Made by a program: the position numbers and the translations under genes. A stretch of DNA of 64,000 nucleotides from Anaeramoeba flamelloides (lineage: Eukaryota > Metamonada > Anaeramoebidae): the NCBI GenBank assembly GCA_027625915.1, contig JANTQA010000032.1, positions 11,920,001-11,984,000 on the forward strand, written 5' to 3'. Positions 25,500-44,100 of this stretch are shown piece by piece. Numbering within the stretch: position 1 is the first letter of the stretch; every line of letters starts with the position of its first letter. The notes under the pieces were generated by a model, which ran no database searches, was not told the DNA's origin, and was given only the letters and a program-made list of their open reading frames with translations.

Positions 25500-28400
25500 T
25501 CAATCAAATTCTTCTAATTTTTGTTTTCTAACTTTTTCTTCTAAGCTGACTTGTCTTTTTTGATATTTAATCATTCTAAACCATTTATCTAATTCACCAG
25601 AACTTCTCATATTCACGATATAAACTTCTGTTGAGGTTCTAATTTCCAAGCAATTTTCCTTTTTCGCTCTGGATCTTGAAGCCTTAACGATTCTTGCTTC
25701 TTCAAGATAGCAAATCAATTCGGGCTTTGTGTCGTCTTTGACTTTAAAGAAGGAAAGAGCGCCTTTGTATAGGACCATCCAACGCCTCATCCATTTTTTC
25801 TTACCAAGAACAACGTTACCACCTTCGTTATCCATAAGCATAACCCAATCGGCGTAATCATGAATACCAAGAGAACCTTCAACGTATCTGAGGATGTCTC
25901 TTTTCTCCATGGCCGCACGTCTTTTCATTTGTTCTTTCAAGTATTGCATTTTCTTAAGTTCACGTTTTCTTCTTTCGACTTCACTTCTTAATCTTTCTTC
26001 AAGTGAACCTGTACCACCGAGAATGATATCAATATCTCTTTCCAGGTTTGATAGCTCTTCTTCAAGTTCTGTAACACGTCTTCTAAGATGTGTTGCCTCC
26101 TCGCTCGTATGATCGGAAATCTTTTGCTTGTCATTTTCAATTTCGTTCGCGTATTTTTCCATTTCCGTGATTTTTTCTTTAATAACCGAATCATTTGTGC
26201 TTGTCTGAACAATTTGCTCGGCTTCTTGTTGACGTTGTCCGATTTCGTTTTCAAGATCCTTCATTGTTTGGATCAATAATTCTCTTTCGGTCAAGCAATC
26301 TTCAATGCCCTGTGTAATGACTTCCTTTTCTTGATTTTGTTCCTCCTGTGTCAAATTAATGTGTTCAATTAATTTCTCTCGATCAGATTTGGCTTGAGTT
26401 AATTCGGTAGTCAGTTCTTGTAAAGTTTGTGCTAAAACTTGTTGATCAGAATTAGTGTCTTCTTGAATCTTGACTGTTTCTTCTTTAATCTTTTCATATT
26501 CTTTTTGTAATTCCTCTTTTTCGAGTTGGAATTTTTCTCTTTCTTGATTTAAAGTTTGTTTTGTAGTTTCTAAAGCCTATAAGATTAGAGTCAAGTTATT
26601 AAAAAATGGTTATCAATTATGGAATTATAAGAAATATATTTGGAATTATTAATAGTTGCTTTTATTATGAGATTTGAAAATCAAAAAAAAAATAATATTA
26701 AATTGTTTTTTAAAATGAGTCAAAATTTATAATAATTAAGAAACCAATTAAATATATTGAAAATAAAACAATTTTCTGAAACAGTTTTTTTATAAGCATA
26801 AAATACTCCATATTTTTCTTATTTTCTTTTTTCTTTTTTCTTAGAAATTATCGATTTATGTAATTATTTAAAAAATATTTTTCAATAATTTAAGAAAACA
26901 TTTGTTGTTTACAAAATTAGAAAAATTGAAAATCTGTTTATTTGAATAATTCTTCAATTAAGACCAACTTTTGAAAAAGATATTTTATATTTTTTTTTTT
27001 GAAAATTTTTAGGAATTTAAAATTTATAATCAAGTATTTGATACAATGATTCCTCTAAAATTGTTTCACTTCTTCACAAGTTGCTAAATTTGACAATTTT
27101 TATTTTTTTTTTTAATGAGGCACACAACCATAAAGTCAAAATTTTCACTTTTTTACTTATTTTAAAAGAAGGTATCATCAAACAATGTTATTTACTTTTT
27201 GTTGTAACTCATTGTTTTTTATTATTCAAAGTACTTGTTGGAAAACAAATTATTAATTTTAAATTTTTTCAAAGATATAAAATAAAATGTCACAATAGAA
27301 TTTTAAGTTCAGTTGCTCTTATCTACTTTAGGGAATGTTAAATGGTTTAACTTTAGTTCTTATCTCAACATTCTATTATGGCATTTTATTTTACAAGTGA
27401 AAAAAAATTAATAAAATTGTTTTTAAGAAGGATTTTTAAATTGTAAAAATCCAACAGAACCACAACTAAATAAACAATAAAGTTTTCAGATCTTATTGTA
27501 AATGAGTAAAAAATTGAAATTTTTGACTTTTGGTATTACACTCTTACTATAATTGAACTTTCTTCCAAAATTTAAAAGGAACAGTAAGGACGTTGATCAA
27601 AAAACAAAAAGATATCCTAAATGATATTTTTATCAATCATTTTATGTTTTACCTTATTGTGAAATATTTTGAATTTAAACTACCGTTTTTAAAAACAATG
27701 AATTGATGTCAAGAAAATTATTTAACTGAAGAGAAATAAAAAGATAGAATGCATTTGAGGAGTTGTAGTATCCTCTAGAATTTTTATTATTAGTAAAATA
27801 TAATCAGTAATAGATTGTTCGCCAATTATTATTTCATAATTGATTACTATTTGAAATGTATATGTTCGATTAATTTGTCAACCAAATCAAAAAGCAAAAG
27901 AAAATTTACTGTTGATCTGATTGTTGATTTAAATTCCTTCTTTTGGTATATTTTTTAAAAAATAATTGTTTTTTTTGAAGATCTTTGTATTTATCTTATT
28001 CTTATTTTTTTATTCAAAATATTTTTAAATTAGCTTAAATTTTATAAAAGTATTAAATTGGAATTATTTTTTAATATTGGTTTGAATACCAAAATCATGA
28101 TTTGTAATTTTTTTCGTATTTATATAGAATCTCAAAATTACAAATAATTAGAAATCTTATAAATTAAATTGAACAAATAGAAATAAAAATGATAAAGTAC
28201 TGCTTTACACGTTTAAAATACTAATTAATATGGGTTAAATAATTGATCAAAATTCACAAAATAATGAATTCTAAAGATTGGAGAAACAATCAAAAAATGT
28301 TAATTATGCTTTTATGAAAAGAATACACATTTTAATACATTTTCGGGTTCAAGTTATATAAACTTTTTAATTAAAAAGTTTTAAATAAATCTTATAGTTT

Positions 28401-32898: not shown

Positions 32899-35297
32899 TT
32901 CTCAATATCCAACACAACAATGAAAAAAAAAAATTTCTTAAAAAAACGAAAAAAAATGAAAATAAAAAATGTTATTTGAGGAATTCTCAGTTCAATTTAG
33001 TCTCTCAATATACCAAAAATACACATTTAAAGTTTGTGTGTAAAACATTGATCTTTTTTCGGTTTTGAAAACTTGCCTTTATTCTTTGAGATAATATTAT
33101 TTAGCGAAGAAGATTACCTGAATTTTTACCCAAAAAATAATAGTTTAAACAAAGCCAAATAGAATTCTGAAAACTCTTCTCAGATGGGTTAAATACTGAA
33201 CACAGGGATCAAATTCTTTCCTAATTTCTTGTGAAGGAAATAAATGAATTTCGTTTTTTCTTTACTAAAAGGTTTTGGACACTTTTTTGACAATTATACA
33301 ATTAAGTCCGATTAATCAAACGTTTTGTCAGTTTGAAAGTAATGAATTATCATTTTTTAAAGAGTTCATTTTCCAAATTTAATTTTACAGTTAAAAGATA
33401 CTTGTATCTTTTTCCTTATTGTGGAACTTTTTGAAGTGCAAAAATAAAAAAAAAATCATCACATTTTTATCATAAGGAAATCTCACTTTTACTAATTTCT
33501 GATTGTTTTAGTGAACGAATAACAAACAAAATATAAAATCTTATTTCACAAATACCAGAAAAATAAATCAATTGTAAAAATACTGAAGATCTAAAAACAA
33601 TTAACACTGTTATTTTAATTTCTTTAAAATTTGAAATTTCTTGAAATTTTTAAGATTCGCTAACATTTTTTTTCATTTATTAAGAGTACAAATAACGAAC
33701 ATTCATTATTAAAATAAATTATTTAAGAATATCTATTGGTTTTTTATATTTTAGAATTTCTTAATTGAAATTAGTTTGATTTGTTTTCAAAAAGTAAAAA
33801 AAAAATTGAAAAATAAAAGACAAATATCTTGATATTTAATCGTTTGGTTATTACTAGCAGGTTGAAATGATTAAGATTGGACTATTAATAATTGATTAAT
33901 AATAATCAAATTAAAAAGTATTTCTTTTTTTTTTTTTTGCTTAATTTTACAGATATTATAAATAGGTTTTTGAAAATATTCTCAATTCATTGGTTGGGTA
34001 ATTGAGAAATGTATTTCTTCTCGGGTTTTATTGTATATATAAAAAGAAAAAATTGAGTCGAAATGTGTTTTTGATAAAGAAATTAAATTTGTTCAAGTTT
34101 AAACAAATTATAGCAATTTTTTGAAATAACGTGGATTATATATAAAGTTGTAGTAAAACTTTCAATATTTTATTTTTAAAGGGTATTTTTGTACATAACT
34201 TTCTTGTCAATACATTTTCTTATTTCAAAATATTTGTTTGTTGAAATAATTTGAAATAATTTTTTGTTAATTATTACTTTTCAAAAATTGGTTAAATTTT
34301 AATGTTTGTTAAAAATCTCAATTTACACAAAATAGTCAATTCTATTGAAATATATTGACCGAGGGTATTTAATCCCCACTTCAGGTTTGATTAGAGTATG
34401 TTTTGTTCAGTTTGATTGGTATATTAGAGAATTGTGGATAATATTATGAAAAAAAAAAACATTACGAGAGGAATTAGAATTGTGTAACGTGTTTTAAGGG
34501 TTATATATTTTCCAACTATACTTTTTTGGTTAAAATTGGGTTTTAAATAAATTTTTAAAAATATTTAGTATAGATCATTTCAACAATTTGAATTTTCGAT
34601 CAATATAGAAATAAAATATTACCAATCACAAAATAATCTAGATAAATGTTACTTCTCACAGCAATTAAAAACCATTAAAATTTTTCATACCCATGAAAGT
34701 AACCAAAAAACTCTTCGAAAATAGAAAAATTTTCAATTTTACCAATTTTGAAATTTGACCCGATATGAAAAGGTATATTTTTTTCAAATTATTTCATAAA
34801 TGAGAAAAAGGGACTAATCTTTGAAAATAATTTAAACGTTTCAGGAAATAGTACTAAACAAAATTCTGTATTATTTTAATAATCAGATTTTTTTACTTCA
34901 TTTTTCAATTTCAAGATCTGGCAATATTTGTTAAAATTTTGGGCATTAAATTTTTTTTGGTTTTCTTATTACTTAAATCAAAATTTTAGGTGTTGACTTA
35001 AACACTTGGTTAAGTATTTTGTTTTTATCACAATTAATAAAAAGCATCTTTAGATGTAAAGTAAAAATAATTCGAGAATAATCCGATTATCAATATTGTT
35101 AATCAAAGTCTTTTACTAAATTATACTTTTTCTTTTTATTTTCTAATTATTCAAAACTGATATTCATTGAAAACACTTTGGTTTTCAGTTATAAAAACCA
35201 AGTGTTAATTCAATTAATGTGAATTTCTCAAGAGATTCAAGAAAAAAAAAAAAGAAGAAATTAAATTGTACTAAATTCAAAATTCAATTACAAACGC
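32899..35297. other. intergenic AT-rich region
   Basis: About 2.4 kb upstream of the fimbrin-like gene. I see A/T-rich sequence with no gene, no clear repeat family and no RNA gene. Confidence 0.5.
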
Positions 35298-35504
35298 TCA
35301 CAAACCAAAATAACAAGAAGTAATATTAATTTGGTTCCACTTTGAGTTACCTTCCAAAAATTCAACAATTGGTTGTGTATCTTGAAAAAGTTTTTTTGAT
35401 TTTTGTTTATTAAATAAATATTTACAGTCAAAAAACAAGCCGCAACCACAAATAATACATCTAACACGATGAAAGAAAAACCAAGATAAATAATTTCTTT
35501 TCAT
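35298..35504 (-). CDS. possible small membrane protein, divergent from the PH-array gene
   Basis: A 68-residue frame opens with ATG at 35504, 72 bp from the ATG of the large plus-strand gene. It has a hydrophobic Cys-rich stretch (about residues 8-31, RCIICGCGLFFDC) that could span a membrane. A more polar part with KQKSKKLFQDTQPIVEFLEG follows. Base composition is less A/T-skewed than typical intergenic DNA here. I do not recognise a family. A shared bidirectional promoter would be very short. It may equally be a chance frame; the longer frame reaching 35741 overlaps the large gene antisense and is not favoured. Confidence 0.35.
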   Translation of the reverse strand: MKRNYLSWFFFHRVRCIICGCGLFFDCKYLFNKQKSKKLFQDTQPIVEFLEGNSKWNQINITSCYFGL

Positions 35505-35576
35505 TTTTTCAAAAAAACTACCTTGGAATTTTTTCTTTTTGAAAAAGTATCTCCACAAAAAAGAGTTTTTATTGTG

Positions 35577-38500
35577 ATGAGCAAAATTGTTCTTGAAGAA
35601 CCGAAATTGGTAACAAAAGCTTATCAAGAAAAAAACAAAAGAGAAGATTTCTTCGTTGCATCTAATTTGACAAATGAATTTGCATTTAAGGATCTTGAAC
35701 AAGAAAAGGGTAACAAGAACGAACAGAAAAATGAAAAACAAATTAATGAAAGGATCTGTTCATTGTTTGCAAAAGGATCTGCAATATTTGAAATCCTGTT
35801 CTTTAATGAAGAAAACAGGATTCGAACTGCATGCCTTTTACAAATAAACAAAAGCAAATTAAGGGTAATAAACTCTACGAAAAGTAAAGAGTATTCTTTT
35901 TATAAGCTCTTAAAAAGTAATCTTTATTCTAATACAAACAACCGATCCATGATTTATTTTGAGATCCAAGAAAAAGAAAAAGAAAAAGAAAATAAAAAAG
36001 AAAAAGAAAAAGAAAAAGAAAATGGAAATGGAAAAGAAAACAAAAAAAAAGAAAGCTTTTGGTGTAAGTTTGAAAACGGGACTGAATCTTTTATCTTTTG
36101 GAAATGTTTAAAACTGTTTTTGTATTACCAAGACGATCAATTGGAAAGCACGCTCACTCACGGATCGATCTTGGGATTAGCCATGGAATTAGAATTATTA
36201 TCACTACGATTATTTTATAATAAGTATGCATGCTTCCAAGTAACTGTAAACAATATTAAAACCAATAACCAAAAAGAGGACTTGAATAATAGCAATTGTA
36301 AATTGCTACTTCAATTTTTACCAAATAGGGTACAGATCTTAATAGATCAAAACAAGAGATCTGTCCATTGGAAAAAGGAATTTCAAAATTCGGATTATAA
36401 GATCAAATTTACAACCAAATCAAATACAGATTTTAACTTAAAATTCGAAGAAATTAATAAAAAAAGCAATTTGCAGTATACCTTTAGTTTAAAGGCCAGC
36501 CAAAAAAACAAAACCCAATTGATTGAAAAGTGTCTGAATAATTTTTATTCATTAGTCAACAAGGATCATAAGGATATGAAATTGCAACCAAAAAAAGTTG
36601 ATTTGGAAAAAGAAAAAAAATTAATAAATTATTTAAAAAATAAAAACTTCCAACAAGAAAAAGTTTTGATTAAATTTACCGAGTTTGATCAAGAAGGGAA
36701 TTTAATGATGATCCAGAAAAGGAATCCTAATATCTCAGATGATAATAATATTTTAATTCATAATAGTTTACCAGATTTAAAATTAAAAATTTTAAAAAAA
36801 TTTCAAAATAATGATACTTTTAGCTTAAATATTTTCAAAATATTAGGTGGTTCAAATGAGGTTCAAAAAAAAAAAAAAAAAGAAAATTTGATATTTAATA
36901 TTAATCAAGAAAAAATCAAGATAATGGAAGAAAACAATAAACAAATTTGGGAATTAAATTTAATTTATAATTCTATTCAAATATTCTTACACCCAATTTA
37001 TGAAAATATTTTAATGATCAGGAATCATTTTAATCAAAAGAAAGTGAATAATAATCAAAAAAGTAAGAAGAAGAAGAAGAAGAAGAATGGCAATGATGAC
37101 GGCAACAAAAAATATATTATTATCGGAGTAAAATCCAATTTTGAAAGAGATCTTATAACTAATTCAATATTATATTATACGAAAAGGCCAATAAGCAAAT
37201 TTAGAATCAGGAGTTGGAAAGAAGGCGATTTAATTGACAGCTCGGTTGATTACTTAAATAACCAATTTATTAAATTTTTAAATGAGAAAGATAGTGATAC
37301 TAAATATAATTTGAAATTATTCAAAAAATATGAAATTGAAAATAAAAAGCAATTACAAAAACACAATTTTTATTCCAAATATAATATCATTTTATTGGAT
37401 TCAATAGGAAACGAAATCAATGATATTAAAATTTATTTGACGAATGAAATTTTTTTAATCAACTTGAAAAAAATTAACGGAAAAATTTATAATTTTAAAT
37501 ATACAATTTTTTCACAATTATTTTTTTATTCAAGGAATTCCTTAATAGGCAAATTCAATATTAATCAAGATTTGACTATTTTTTTGAAATTTCAAAATTA
37601 TGAATTTAGATGTGGTTTTAATTTAGATTTTTTAGATCGACGAAAAAATATTTTAAACACCACACAATTGAATTACCAAATATTTGATTCATTGGTTTTA
37701 TTTCCTATGAATAATAGCTATAACTATGGTGACAACGACAGTAATAATAATAATAATAATAATAATAAAATTCAAAATAATAGTAAAAATAAAAAGTTAA
37801 AAGAAAAGGGGAAGAAAAAGGCATGTAGGCTTTATGTAAATATTGAAAAATTTATTATTAAAATTAATAATAAAAAATATTTTTCAATCGAATTAGATGA
37901 AAGACTTCATATCAATATTAACAATTCTAATGATTCAAATGAATTTCTTCTTGATATTCAAATCGGTTATTTGGGGAAAATCCAAATCGTTTTTAATTCA
38001 ATCACAAAAAGAAATGAATTTTTATCTACATTTATTAAATTACAACAAGATCCAATTTTCGAATTAAGAAGAAATAATGTCTTAAATTTTGAAAAGGATT
38101 TAGATTCCAAGCAATGTAAATGGAAATTTAGAACCGATTCTTTAATATTAGGCATTTACCAAACACCAAGGGAGTGTTTACCGAGACAGGCATTGGAAAA
38201 CGAAGTCAATTCCGATGAAAATATTGGGAAATGGGACATTAAGGCATGTATTAAAAAGGGATCGTCATATATTTTACACAATAGGATCCTGTCTTTCAAT
38301 TTAACTTCCATTATGATCCAAAAGTCTATTAATAACGTGCCCTCCACTAACGAAAGAAATGGCTTAATATACAATTCCTTTTTTTCAACTGAAATACATG
38401 TTCATAAAAATAATAATAAATGGCTGATGGTCTTGGTCAAATCAGATAAGGGGGAAATAGTAAACGAGCTAGCTATTATGTTTCCGAAAAGAAAGGATCG

Positions 38501-41174
38501 TGTCAGTTTTTTAAAAAAATGGAAAATTTACAAGCAAGCTTATTTCATTAGCAACACAATCCCAAGCCGAAAAACATTTAAAAATAATGGTAAGGCTATT
38601 CTAACTGGGAAAAGTTTGGATATAAAAATTAATAAACAAATTTTGAAATTGTATTTTGATCAAAATTGGGCAATTACTCAAAATACACTGTTCAATAATA
38701 TCGCTGAATTAAATGTTTATATTAACGGCATTTATGATAACTATTTCTTTAAATTTAATAATAATAACCAATGTAAGGATTTTATCAATAGAATACTTGA
38801 AACTCGCGATATCGTTAAATACCGCGATTGTGTGCATAGAAGAGGTAAAAGACCAGCGTTTAATGTTTCGGTTATAAATTCAAATGGCGATGCAATGACA
38901 ACTGCCAAAATTTCGATTGTTAAATCAAATTTTAATATTGCACTATCAAAGCAAAAGAAAAATAAATATAAAGCCAACCAAATAAAGGTATTTAAGCATG
39001 ATACAAATGATTGCCTCTGCTTATTAAAAATTAATTCGTCAAAGAATAAACAAAACCGGAAAAGGCATAAGAACACAAGCAAGAAAAACGAGAAAATACA
39101 AAGTCATTATCTTTTATTCCCCAACACGTCATCATTGAAAGATTTCTTATTCCTTTATGAACATTCAATTTCTGGATTTAACCCAAAAAAGGATTTGCAA
39201 ATCAATACCACAACCCAAGTTCCTTTAACCTTTGTCAATTTGTCAAATCAAAAAGAAAGAAATGGAAAAATTTATTTTTTAAATGATAATACTATAAAAG
39301 TGGCTATTGAAAAAAAATCGAAAAGATACCAACTCAATGGAGAAAACAATACTATTATCAAATTGAAAGAATCTAAAAAAAATCCCAAAACTAAAGGCCT
39401 TGTAAAAATATCAATAAACGAAAAAATAAGATGGGCTAGAATGAATTCAAATCATGATAAGGCAGCAATATTGGGAAAATATCAACAAATTTTGAAAAAT
39501 TTAAATATTTCTTATCAAGGTGATGAGGACGAAGACTCGTTAACTGAGCAAAATGTTCCTACAAAAAATAAAAATTTAAATTTAATTAAAAATAATGCAC
39601 AACAGGATATTTTAGAGTTGAGTAATTCTGAAAATGAAGATGATATAAAAGATGGGAAAGGAAAGGAAGTTATATTAGAAAAAGAAAGTGGAAATGAAAC
39701 TTTAAAAGAAAATGATGAAAAGGAAAGGGAAAAGGAAAGGGAAAAGGAAAAGGAAAAGGAAAAGGATAAGGATGAGGGTAAGGAAAGGGAAAAGAAAAAG
39801 GATAAGGATAATGAAAAGGATGACGATAAGGATAAGGATGGGGGCAAAGAGGGGAAAAGTGTTACATTTGGAAAGATTAAAGTTATTCGCAATGAAAAGA
39901 AAACAATTAAATTATTATCAAGTGAAAGTTCAAGTGGAAGATCAAGTTCAAGTGAAAGTAAAAGTACAAGCTCAATTTCAAGTGGAAGTGAAAGTGAAAG
40001 TGAAAACAGTAAAAGTGATAAAAAAAGTGATAATGAAAGCGAAAACAAAAATAAAAACAATAATAAAAGCCAAAATGGTGATGATGATGCCAATGGAGGT
40101 GATGGGGGTGATGGAGATAATAAAAATATCGATCGACAAATCAAACAGGAATTAGAAAATGATGAACAAAAAAAATGGGAAATTACTTGGGAAGAACAGC
40201 CAGATATCTCTCATTTTGATATCTATTTATCCAATTATAATGGGAACGGGCTCTATGATTGCCATGTTTCAATAGATGAAACTATGGGGATCTTGAAACT
40301 TCAAAACCGTGATAAATGGGAAACCAAATGGGAGACTATTGATCAAATGACACGATTATTTAAGCATCCCAAAAATCGGTCATTATTGAAAATAGGATTC
40401 GAATCATCAAACAATAAAATGTATTTCTTATTTAAAACAATGACCGACTTGCAAACATTTGTCCAAATAATCAAGCAATTAATGCATCAGGAAAGATCAA
40501 ACTATCTAGCTAATATTACAGAATTAAGCAAAAACGGGAAAAGGTATTTTGGCGTCTTAAACTTCCACAATGAGGATTTATATATCAGAAACTGTGATGA
40601 TATTTCTCAGGAAAAAAAAAATAATGAGGTGCCAGTGTATTTAAAAAATGTTTTAGAAATCAAACAAAATGATAAGGACACAAAGAAAATTCAAATAATC
40701 CAAAATAAAAAAAAATTAAAAACTTATTTAATTGAATTCTTACAAGAAAAAAATGTGGTAGATTTTGTTGATCTATGCTTACCAATTCAAAAAAAATATG
40801 AAAAAATTAATGCACCAAAAAGGAAAAAAAAGGAAAAAAAAGAAAAGGAGAAAAAAAAAAAAAAAAAACAACAAAAGCAAAAAAAAAAAAACAGAAAGAA
40901 AGGTCTATTTGAAATTAACTGCAAAAAGGCTTCAATTATTTCAGAGAACAATCTTGATGGCGAAATCGTTTTAAAATGGAGAAGTTGGCAAATACATTTT
41001 AGTAATGGAAAGGAATTTAAAATTAAATACGGGACACCTTACAAAGTTTTTTCCAACCCGAATGTTTCAAATTTGGTTAAACTAATAATTAAAGACCTTG
41101 GGTATTTAATCATAACCTTTGATGACGAAATAGATAAATTGCGTTTTAAAAGGGAATTGGTTCAAAAGCAATAA
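35577..41174 (+). CDS. giant protein, apparent array of cryptic PH-like modules
   Basis: Single exon, 1865 residues from ATG 35577; the frame is open upstream but has no other ATG. No catalytic motif is visible. What recurs is a module of about 90-130 residues. It opens with strands like 'h-x-V-x-h-x-N-x-x-G', continues with alternating hydrophobic strands, and ends in an amphipathic helix such as RNEFLSTFIKL (about 812), DRVSFLKKWKIY (about 974), CKDFINRIL (about 1065), LKDFLFLYEHS (about 1187), KAAILGKYQQIL (about 1295), LQTFVQIIKQL (about 1624), VVDFVDLCLPI (about 1727) and KLRFKREL (about 1854). That strand-then-helix rhythm is what diverged PH folds look like; about ten are seen. Low-complexity linkers (KEKEKE near 130-160, Asn-rich near 725, a 170-residue charged and Ser-rich segment near 1355-1525, and poly-Lys near 1755) separate groups of modules. 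A membrane or phosphoinositide scaffold is inference. I do not recognise a named family. Confidence 0.85.
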   Translation: MSKIVLEEPKLVTKAYQEKNKREDFFVASNLTNEFAFKDLEQEKGNKNEQKNEKQINERICSLFAKGSAIFEILFFNEENRIRTACLLQINKSKLRVINSTKSKEYSFYKLLKSNLYSNTNNRSMIYFEIQEKEKEKENKKEKEKEKENGNGKENKKKESFWCKFENGTESFIFWKCLKLFLYYQDDQLESTLTHGSILGLAMELELLSLRLFYNKYACFQVTVNNIKTNNQKEDLNNSNCKLLLQFLPNRVQILIDQNKRSVHWKKEFQNSDYKIKFTTKSNTDFNLKFEEINKKSNLQYTFSLKASQKNKTQLIEKCLNNFYSLVNKDHKDMKLQPKKVDLEKEKKLINYLKNKNFQQEKVLIKFTEFDQEGNLMMIQKRNPNISDDNNILIHNSLPDLKLKILKKFQNNDTFSLNIFKILGGSNEVQKKKKKENLIFNINQEKIKIMEENNKQIWELNLIYNSIQIFLHPIYENILMIRNHFNQKKVNNNQKSKKKKKKKNGNDDGNKKYIIIGVKSNFERDLITNSILYYTKRPISKFRIRSWKEGDLIDSSVDYLNNQFIKFLNEKDSDTKYNLKLFKKYEIENKKQLQKHNFYSKYNIILLDSIGNEINDIKIYLTNEIFLINLKKINGKIYNFKYTIFSQLFFYSRNSLIGKFNINQDLTIFLKFQNYEFRCGFNLDFLDRRKNILNTTQLNYQIFDSLVLFPMNNSYNYGDNDSNNNNNNNNKIQNNSKNKKLKEKGKKKACRLYVNIEKFIIKINNKKYFSIELDERLHININNSNDSNEFLLDIQIGYLGKIQIVFNSITKRNEFLSTFIKLQQDPIFELRRNNVLNFEKDLDSKQCKWKFRTDSLILGIYQTPRECLPRQALENEVNSDENIGKWDIKACIKKGSSYILHNRILSFNLTSIMIQKSINNVPSTNERNGLIYNSFFSTEIHVHKNNNKWLMVLVKSDKGEIVNELAIMFPKRKDRVSFLKKWKIYKQAYFISNTIPSRKTFKNNGKAILTGKSLDIKINKQILKLYFDQNWAITQNTLFNNIAELNVYINGIYDNYFFKFNNNNQCKDFINRILETRDIVKYRDCVHRRGKRPAFNVSVINSNGDAMTTAKISIVKSNFNIALSKQKKNKYKANQIKVFKHDTNDCLCLLKINSSKNKQNRKRHKNTSKKNEKIQSHYLLFPNTSSLKDFLFLYEHSISGFNPKKDLQINTTTQVPLTFVNLSNQKERNGKIYFLNDNTIKVAIEKKSKRYQLNGENNTIIKLKESKKNPKTKGLVKISINEKIRWARMNSNHDKAAILGKYQQILKNLNISYQGDEDEDSLTEQNVPTKNKNLNLIKNNAQQDILELSNSENEDDIKDGKGKEVILEKESGNETLKENDEKEREKEREKEKEKEKDKDEGKEREKKKDKDNEKDDDKDKDGGKEGKSVTFGKIKVIRNEKKTIKLLSSESSSGRSSSSESKSTSSISSGSESESENSKSDKKSDNESENKNKNNNKSQNGDDDANGGDGGDGDNKNIDRQIKQELENDEQKKWEITWEEQPDISHFDIYLSNYNGNGLYDCHVSIDETMGILKLQNRDKWETKWETIDQMTRLFKHPKNRSLLKIGFESSNNKMYFLFKTMTDLQTFVQIIKQLMHQERSNYLANITELSKNGKRYFGVLNFHNEDLYIRNCDDISQEKKNNEVPVYLKNVLEIKQNDKDTKKIQIIQNKKKLKTYLIEFLQEKNVVDFVDLCLPIQKKYEKINAPKRKKKEKKEKEKKKKKKQQKQKKKNRKKGLFEINCKKASIISENNLDGEIVLKWRSWQIHFSNGKEFKIKYGTPYKVFSNPNVSNLVKLIIKDLGYLIITFDDEIDKLRFKRELVQKQ

Positions 41175-44100
41175 TGCCTTTTATCATGGTTTATTTATGA
41201 ACAGCATATTGCAGGATTATGTGTTTTTTTTTATTTTTATTTATCTATAACACACATGTTTCTTGTTTGTTTTGTTTTTTTCTTAATCTATTTTTTATTC
41301 TATTTCTATAACTATAAATTATAACTTTCAGTTTTTTTTTTAATAATTATTTAAAGATTTTTTTTTTTTTTTACTTTTTTATTCTGACATTTTAATTTAT
41401 TATAAATAATAAAATAATTTGATTTTTACTTGATTTGTAAACCTGGAAAATTAACATTTTAAAAAATAATAAAAGTTGGAAAAATTCGTTTGTTTTTTTT
41501 GAATTATGGATTTGATTAGAAAATCTAATGATTAGAAGCAAAAATAATTATTAAAAAAAATAATATCGATTTTTATAAGAGTTGTGAGGAAAGTGAACAG
41601 AATGGATTTTCATGTGGAATTCTGTTTATTCAGAAACCCCATATCGTTTTAACAGATACAGACATTTTTAGAAACTCTCAGATGTGGGTTTTCGTTTTGG
41701 GTAATAACTCTATTAATTTCCCGATCAATACAATAATTAAAACTGAAAGATAATTAGTCATTTTAAAGCCCTAGTATTAGTATAAAAGCAAAAAATGTCC
41801 ATTTTTTTGTCATTTTTTTTTTTAAATTTACTTTTTTGGAATATCTTAAAGTTATAATTTTGAACCCAATGTTTGGCAAGGTTTGAATAGTAATCATTTG
41901 TACATTTCAGGTGACCTTTTGTTCATGGGGTTTTTGAAAAGGTGGATTGATAAAAAAATACAAAAAGAATTTAAATCTTTTGCTTTTATACCAATATGAG
42001 GACTTTAAATGGGTTATTAAGTAAAGTTTTCTAAAATGCAAATAAAACTAGTTAGTACAAGTCAATTAAGCAACTGGTTTTCCACTGATAAAACTTTTAT
42101 TTGGGGGTTGTTTAAAAAAGAAAGAGGTCGATTTATATTTTGTTCTAATCAAAAAGAAGTGTGTTGGAAATCTGCGCTTTTAAGGGATTTTTTTTCTCAA
42201 ACATAAAAATAAAAAAAAAAAATATAACACTTATAAGACCAAATGGTAAAGTTAAAAAGCACAATTATTTTCATTTTCAATATAGTACACACTTCTTTTT
42301 ATAGTTGGTTGAGAGAATATTAGAGAAATTGACTATGTTTTATAATCTTTATTCCAATGGTATCAAATAAACTTGGGAGTTATATTATTATTGAAAATAT
42401 CTAGCTATTAATATCAGAATTAAAAGAATAATATCAAAATTTTATAATATCAGCTCATGGGTATCATTATCATTTACTCAACTCCAAAAAAATCACAGGC
42501 AGCGAAAGTGTGGCAAAGGGGTATTAACTCAGGATGAAAATTTTTCTTTAATTTGTATATAAAAATTATAAGTGGTTCGTTTTCACAATTTAATTGAATA
42601 AAGATATATTTTGATTATTTGATAGTTTTGATTATAATCTGGTTGATAATATTATTACGATCGGTCGAGATTTAGTATTAAAATCTAAATATAAAACGAA
42701 AGATCATTAGAATTTTGAATTATCAGATATTTGTATTTTAGAAATTAAAATAACATTAAATTTTAAATATTGTTGTTCAAATCAAAATGGTAACACATCT
42801 TTTTGAAAATTTAGATCATTTCATATCAGAATGCCCTAAATACAAATTATAAGGAAATAATTTGAAACAATCCATCAAAACAAATTAAATTAAAAGAATC
42901 GAAGTAAAAGCAACCAAGGTGTTAAACAATAGGAAGGGTGGTGTCTTTATTTTATCTTTCCGAAATAATGATGAATAATATAAATATTCACAAGATTTTT
43001 TCATTTGATCTCTGAATTCAAGATCGATTTTAAAGTAATAAAATAACATCACCATATATTTTTTACCTATTCACATCTCTTTTTTTTAAACACCATTCTC
43101 TTCCTCTATCTTTTTCATTTCCCCCCTTTCAATTTTTTTTTTTGTTTTTTTTTTTTCTCTTATATGCCCTTAATAAAATTAAGCACTATTTTTTTCTGGT
43201 TAATATTTTTGAAATTAAGTTCATAACTTAATTCAATTAACCACTGTGATAATTTTTTTTAGAATAAAAACACTCTCAACTTTTAAATATCGAAAATATT
43301 TTTTTGAAATTAGTGTGCACTTTTTTATTTTTTTTTGAAAAATTCGGGTTGAGAAAAGTTTGAAATCAAAAAATAAGTTAATATATTAAATTAGAATGCT
43401 TTTCTAGAAATTTTATCCTTTTAGTTTAACTTTGTTTTAATTTTACAATTTAAAACTAAAAAAAAACATTTGAGGAACAAATTAGTGCCTTTTGTGAAAA
43501 GAAAATTCCCCATAATTTAGAATTTGTTTTTGTAAATGAGTTAAAACAAGATAGTGAAAATATAAATATACATAATTTCAAGTGTGAATTCAATGATTTT
43601 GGCAAAAAATATTTTCAAGATAAAGTTAAACTGAAACTTTATTTATTTTTATTTTTTCATTTGGTTTTTTTAATGGTATTAATGGAAAGTATTTGATCAG
43701 TTTTTCATTTTTATTGTTTTTTGGGTTGTAGGGACATATAAATAGTTCTTTACCTAAAAAATAAATTGACAAGTCAAATTGGTTTTTTTTTTTATTGAAA
43801 TAGAAGAATCATTTATTAAACTCTTTTATTTTTCTCATTGATAAATGAGTTGAAAACATTGATCGTTTATCAAGTAAAAGGGTATCTACCCTCCTTTTTT
43901 CGGTTGAAAAAATCTTTTTATTTATTGTTTCTTCCCAGAAAAGTAAAAAATATTCTTACCCTTTAAAAAAATTTTCTCAATAAAAAACAACAAATTGTTA
44001 TATAATTGAGTAATCTGATCAATTATAGACAAATTCAATTTCAAAATTAAAATTTATTCGAAAAATCAAGGAATGTATAAGTTTGTCTTCAAAATTGAAT

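Follow-up and report, generated by a model that had tools for sequence, protein, structure and literature searches.

The PH fold usually occurs in one to a few copies per protein. It is shared by a clan that comprises classical PH, PTB, EVH1, RanBD, FERM F3, GRAM and other domains, and small GTPases, peptides and the tails of membrane proteins are known ligands of the superfold. RanBP2/Nup358, the product of one gene at the nuclear pore, carries four Ran-binding domains that are recognisable by sequence. The nearest published case that we found to the locus described here is the N-terminus of RME-8, which, in the part of the report available, has three tandem, cryptic PH-like domains, two of them visible only by structure prediction (PMC9642905). 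We analysed a stretch of 64,000 nucleotides from Anaeramoeba flamelloides (NCBI GenBank assembly GCA_027625915.1, contig JANTQA010000032.1, positions 11,920,001 to 11,984,000 of the forward strand; hereafter the window). One of its genes, at 35577..41174 (+), encodes a protein of 1865 residues, P0001, that would be a chain of about twelve tandem modules, A to L, of the PH superfold. Like the members of the clan, its modelled modules have a seven-stranded barrel and a C-terminal helix, and the array keeps their spacing between strand 7 and the helix; unlike them, it mostly has Phe at the position of the helix Trp, shows no significant sequence link to them and strings about twelve modules in one chain. 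It shares with RanBP2/Nup358 a long chain with several modules of a superfold that there binds proteins. RME-8, as far as the same excerpt goes, has solenoids and a DnaJ domain besides its three modules (PMC9642905), whereas no other domain was found beside the dozen or so modules of P0001.

Results

The gene is one open reading frame of 1865 codons and a stop, as an earlier reading of the window (the sequence-only reading) had it. Its start codon is backed by the N-termini of paralogues (MSKIVLEE, compared with MSILKENF in two of them and MKKSILK in one, the first in-frame Met being taken as the paralogue start). The absence of any standard domain, asserted by the same reading, was borne out: AGA2 at E 0.15 was the sole Pfam match to P0001, PDB sequences gave no match up to E 1, and no enzyme domain was recognised in the Pfam scan.

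The evidence that depends least on where modules are drawn is the spacing between the end of strand 7 and the start of the helix. The signature hxhxF-x8-F occurs at nine sites in P0001, while other spacings from 2 to 30 give at most three. In 5000 shuffles, nine sites were never reached at any spacing in that range, and the same held for 5000 shuffles that preserved the hydrophobic pattern. Of the nine sites, eight coincide with module ends (A, D, E, F, G, J, K and L); the ninth, at residue 1604, lies within J, and module H has F-x8-F with the hxhx lead missing. A recurring module end had been noticed in the sequence-only reading, and its recurrence is indeed beyond chance, but the motif given there, R/D-x-x-F-L/I-x-x-h-x-x-h, matches only twice (0.18 expected; reached by 1.2% of 2000 shuffles). 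Among the family members described below, L035 has ten hxhxF-x8-F sites (0 of 2000 shuffles), L033 and L034 six each (2 and 6 of 2000) and L061 six (2 of 2000); one site each in L033, L034 and L035 falls inside module D, not at its end. In a comparison set of 20 other long frames from this genome (37,011 residues) there were 17 spacing-nine sites, at most two per frame and with no peak at nine. This boundary-free test is stronger evidence than the module alignments presented further on.

The same spacing is found in ordinary PH domains of the genome. We cut out 30 sequences (24 listed matches and six of the eight loci L001-L008, L001 and L006 being left out) and dropped two with stops. In all 28 that remained, the end of strand 7 and the helix Trp are separated by nine (seven gave 17 matches, ten gave 8 and the rest of the range 6-13 at most three each). 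A separate count of 24 spacing-nine matches includes some outside PH domains, and the 28-sequence count is the cleaner one. The array modules keep the spacing of nine and most have Phe where all 28 ordinary domains have the helix Trp; copies of module D have F-x8-F in 23 of 24 genes, again with Phe at that position. According to a supplementary legend of one report, no other residue of PH-like domains is as conserved as this Trp (PMC5091641). Its replacement by Phe may explain why Pfam misses the array.

Structures were predicted for two of the twelve modules, J and K. Multi-module alignments intended for a two-module structure looked too poor or too shallow, and module K was therefore folded singly. 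The AlphaFold2 model of J (predicted local distance difference test score 90.1, predicted template modelling score 0.81) has seven strands and a C-terminal helix, as has the model of K, and both align with PH-superfold structures over the whole domain. These matches span several subfamilies of the clan with tied scores and include Ran-binding domains, among them those of RanBP2/Nup358; Pfam shows no subfamily match. J and K are thus predicted to belong to the PH superfold, which supports the PH-fold proposal of the sequence-only reading, and the other ten modules are probably PH-like as well. On predicted structure we class the array with the superfold, but not with the classical PH domains.

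Twelve candidate modules were delimited by eye from their strand pattern and closing helix. Boundaries drawn in this way favour likeness among modules, so that controls matter. The modules are 90-128 residues long and unevenly spaced; the sequence-only reading had counted about ten, with ends recurring about every 90-150 residues. Each module was compared with the others by leave-one-out hhalign, with 67 decoys cut from five further genes of the window (two candidates containing long charged runs were passed over). Alignment A2 held ten of the twelve modules (B and C left out) and A9 eleven (C left out), module E entering both minus its first strand. Five modules, on the + strand like all the others, scored above all 20 of their own shuffles (global mode) and above all 67 decoys: A (residues 68-185, with a Lys/Glu-rich insert; 35778..36131), E (698-825, with an Asn-rich insert; 37668..38051), H (1092-1200; 38850..39176), J (1544-1638; 40206..40490) and L (1776-1865; 40902..41171). 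Three were borderline: B (217-328; 36225..36560), recognised by its strand and helix pattern, D (600-696; 37374..37664), the best conserved among the fetched paralogues, and G (988-1078; 38538..38810), with 3, 5 and 8 of the 67 decoys scoring as high, respectively. The remaining four, F (883-988; 38223..38540), I (1213-1310; 39213..39506), K (1641-1738; 40497..40790) and C (413-537, with a Lys-rich insert ahead of strand 7; 36813..37187), were indistinguishable from decoys, 24, 30, 31 and 47 of which scored as high; C was drawn on pattern only. Circular permutations in global mode reached the real score in none of 20 cases for A, E, H and L and in one of 20 for J. In pairwise comparisons of single sequences one pair stood out, H-J (E 6.4e-4), and comparing the masked single sequence of P0001 with itself gave one weak off-diagonal match only (E 0.7).

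Profiles in which each module was represented by up to four family members linked more modules. The best of the 66 pairs were G-H (E 1.8e-4, 64 columns) and H-J (2.1e-4, 81 columns), followed by E-L (2.5e-4), H-I (2.6e-4, 79 columns) and F-H (4e-4); these values are those of one comparison each, uncorrected for the 66 pairs, and the best E with one member reversed was 0.013. A profile of G, H, I and J matched the held-out modules F (1.6e-4, 45 columns), E (7e-4, 81 columns), K (7.7e-4), D (2.3e-3, 85 columns) and L (7.3e-3); reversed, the same five ranged from 0.29 to 0.72, and the best decoy of 67 reached 0.053. The 24-sequence family profile of module D matched L (4.9e-4, 63 columns) and the G-H-I-J profile (1.1e-3, 80 columns). 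The E-values with the G-H-I-J and D profiles likewise refer to single, uncorrected comparisons. Because of these links, modules D to L can be regarded as joined by sequence. An internal repeat signal, which the sequence-only reading had predicted, is present in the module alignments, the spacing signature and the profile links.

Modules A, B and C showed no profile-level link to the others, even when a fifth family member was added; sequence support for B and C is not significant, and C scores under most decoys. A mixed chain is consequently to be considered, in which only D to L, or fewer, would be PH-like and A to C, together with residues 330-412 and 533-598, would adopt other folds. Module A speaks against it, since it beats all 67 decoys and has an F-x8-F end that recurs in L035 and L061, as does the fact that the A-C regions can be aligned in paralogues. 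We regard such a chain as possible, though clearly the less probable arrangement. For residues 355-430 and 536-595 a ubiquitin-like reading was weighed on visual inspection only. Nine or ten of the approximately twelve modules are well supported.

Several results weigh against a PH-superfold array. Seven of the twelve modules fail to beat all decoys in the single-sequence test, and in the decoy run B, C, H, I and K scored higher reversed than in their real order (for H, 10.3 against 8.3, compared with 2.5 against 21.2 in the shuffle run). Circular permutations in local mode reach the real score in 10 of 20 cases for E, 11 for J and 5 for L. The D family profile matches B out of register at E 0.0059, so that values near 0.01 are unreliable and weak ones call for caution. 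The model of K has no Foldseek match at E ≤ 0.001; the fold inputs were paralogous modules of the same chain, and J and K alone were folded, without a control fold. No Pfam PH match (PF00169) was obtained for P0001, for four paralogues or for the module sets. The sequence-only reading had expected profile searches to find the PH superfamily, and they did not: against the 28-sequence classical PH profile, the best value for module and family profiles was E 0.018 (module K), which is not significant, and PDB profile searches were empty or gave unrelated matches (TetX, E 0.33 and up). AGA2 for module K alone (E 0.0034, below the Pfam cut-off) and other weak Pfam matches were set aside, each having hit one module only. 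According to the portion of one paper available to us, sequence links between families of the PH-like clan are frequently absent (PMC5091641).

The genome (G000; 254 Mb, 76 contigs) was then searched for relatives, and paralogues with the same modules were found, as the sequence-only reading had anticipated. The F-I region retrieved three, L033, L034 and L035, with frames of 1824-1986 residues that align with P0001 over their full length at 25-29% identity; the J-K region retrieved two further family loci, and the D-E region 35 places, the P0001 gene included. Searching with module D of other members returned 96 and 98 places in two queries, which a 3 kb rule merged to 115 loci, all search counts being lower bounds. 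The median open frame of these loci is 1655 residues and 108 reach at least 1000. In module D some loci share 95-100% identity, so that the number of genes may be lower (haplotype copies or recent duplicates); the family appears to count about 100 related genes. Identity to paralogues is 35-37% over aligned residues for module C and 30-44% for D. Whole-array content was checked in five full genes (P0001, L033, L034, L035 and L061): modules F-L of L061 aligned poorly, and no counterpart of module L was seen in L033 and L034, which have a long Lys-rich tail instead. L033 (contig C61) and L034 (C22) are about 91% identical in protein sequence and each lies about 140 kb from its contig start. Searches of prokaryote genome contigs and viral contigs with whole P0001 gave no relative. 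Excerpts of a published account describe Anaeramoeba genomes as A+T rich, with greatly expanded families (PMC11550330). Base composition and lysine-rich proteins seen here fit that genus.

The many copies might also mean that the frame belongs to a mobile element or is in decay. Within 33000-44000, however, there are no inverted repeats of 60 bases or more, and the direct repeats of that length are only Lys-rich coding sequence, on which ground a mobile element was rejected. No transposition domain was found in P0001 or four paralogues, 114 of the 115 loci are free of stops within the match, and the L033/L034 pair has a ratio of non-synonymous (dN 0.043) to synonymous (dS 0.149) divergence of about 0.29. 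We consider either reading highly improbable. The only module-D match with internal stops, at G000 C61:2246128-2246397 (-), is possibly a decaying member of the family.

Ordinary PH domains are abundant in the genome too: PF00169 matches number at least 153, many of them within frames longer than 1000 residues. Four loci, L009-L012 (G000 C70:12541000, C61:3337000, C13:13532000 and C33:11083500), have parent open reading frames of 2598-2684 residues that by eye suggest repeated PH, helical and SH3 units; the 1973 residues of L009 that were scanned contain four PF00169 and two SH3_2 stretches. They resemble the array in being long frames with several PH domains per chain and differ from it in that their PH domains are recognised by Pfam and accompanied by SH3. 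A blastp comparison of P0001 with these PH-SH3 and other loci (28 loci) showed no sequence similarity (best E 0.95).

The sequence-only reading had left open whether the array would bind lipid or protein. We used a simple pattern over the first 40 residues, K-x(n)-[K/R]-x-R in strands 1-2, as a phosphoinositide signature, with the 28 ordinary PH domains as positive control. P0001 has it in none of its twelve modules, and four family members have it in 7 of 46; it occurs in 1 of 24 module-D copies, compared with 19 of 28 ordinary domains. As a rival reading, the protein may be a multivalent lipid reader, several weak PH-like modules using non-classical basic surfaces to hold jointly, by avidity, to a membrane rich in phosphoinositides. 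Lys and Arg exceed Asp and Glu in all twelve modules (21 against 6 in H and 21 against 7 in I, inserts included), the net charge of P0001 is +109, and the available text on RME-8 proposes that its three PH-like domains act jointly in endosomal lipid binding (PMC9642905). Against this stand the rarity of the classical signature and a lysine richness that looks genome-wide, and we judge lipid reading unlikely. The absence of the signature favours protein docking instead.

Between modules I and J lies a charged, mostly low-complexity linker of about 219 residues (1315-1533; 39519..40175, +), which is rich in Ser, Glu and Asp, net acidic (charge -15), largely covered by the complexity mask and probably disordered. 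A second linker, between K and L (1743-1772; 40803..40892, +), is Lys-rich with a net charge of +16. Subunits of FACT carry tandem PH-like domains, and an acidic stretch adjoining PH-like modules could point to a nuclear histone chaperone of that kind, in which modules and disordered segment would bind histones together. A core chaperone is not resembled by a chain of a dozen or so modules from so large a family, and there is no sequence match in Pfam or PDB; this alternative seems to us quite improbable.

The window is 76% A+T. It carries eukaryotic genes with PH, CH, kinase, TPR and ubiquitin-hydrolase domains in the Pfam scan. One of them, at 25500-26576 (-), has a Pfam PH domain (E 6.8e-11) preceded by a coiled-coil-looking stretch, and did not align with the array module profile; none of the remaining frames of the window matched that profile (best E 0.11). 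Two open frames opposite the array gene, at 39515-40144 (-) across its low-complexity part and at 35298-35741 (-) across its 5' part, are probably by-products of composition.

Discussion

We propose, as the reading that we hold rather more probable than its rivals taken up above, that the array gene encodes an intracellular scaffold for multivalent protein docking, built of about twelve diverged tandem PH-superfold modules and belonging to a family of about 100 genes. Some modules would be separated by charged, probably disordered linkers, and different modules would bind different partners, so that one chain could gather several. The hydropathy of P0001 shows no transmembrane segment, and the protein is presumably cytosolic.

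The fold itself is known already. In the open-licence literature searched we found no account of so long an array, of its lack of a Pfam match or of so large a family, in agreement with the sequence-only reading. A chain of about twelve modules, in a family of about 100 genes of which no scanned member was recognised by Pfam, would bring a further PH-like family into the clan and would show that long repeat arrays can be built from the PH fold. The family would also offer naturally diversified PH surfaces for comparing ligand recognition. More tentatively, a lineage-specific set of about 100 genes, each with up to twelve PH-superfold modules and diversified recognition surfaces, may serve as combinatorial adaptors. 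If so, PH folds would play the part in this lineage that ankyrin or leucine-rich repeats have elsewhere, perhaps matched to an expanded set of small GTPases.
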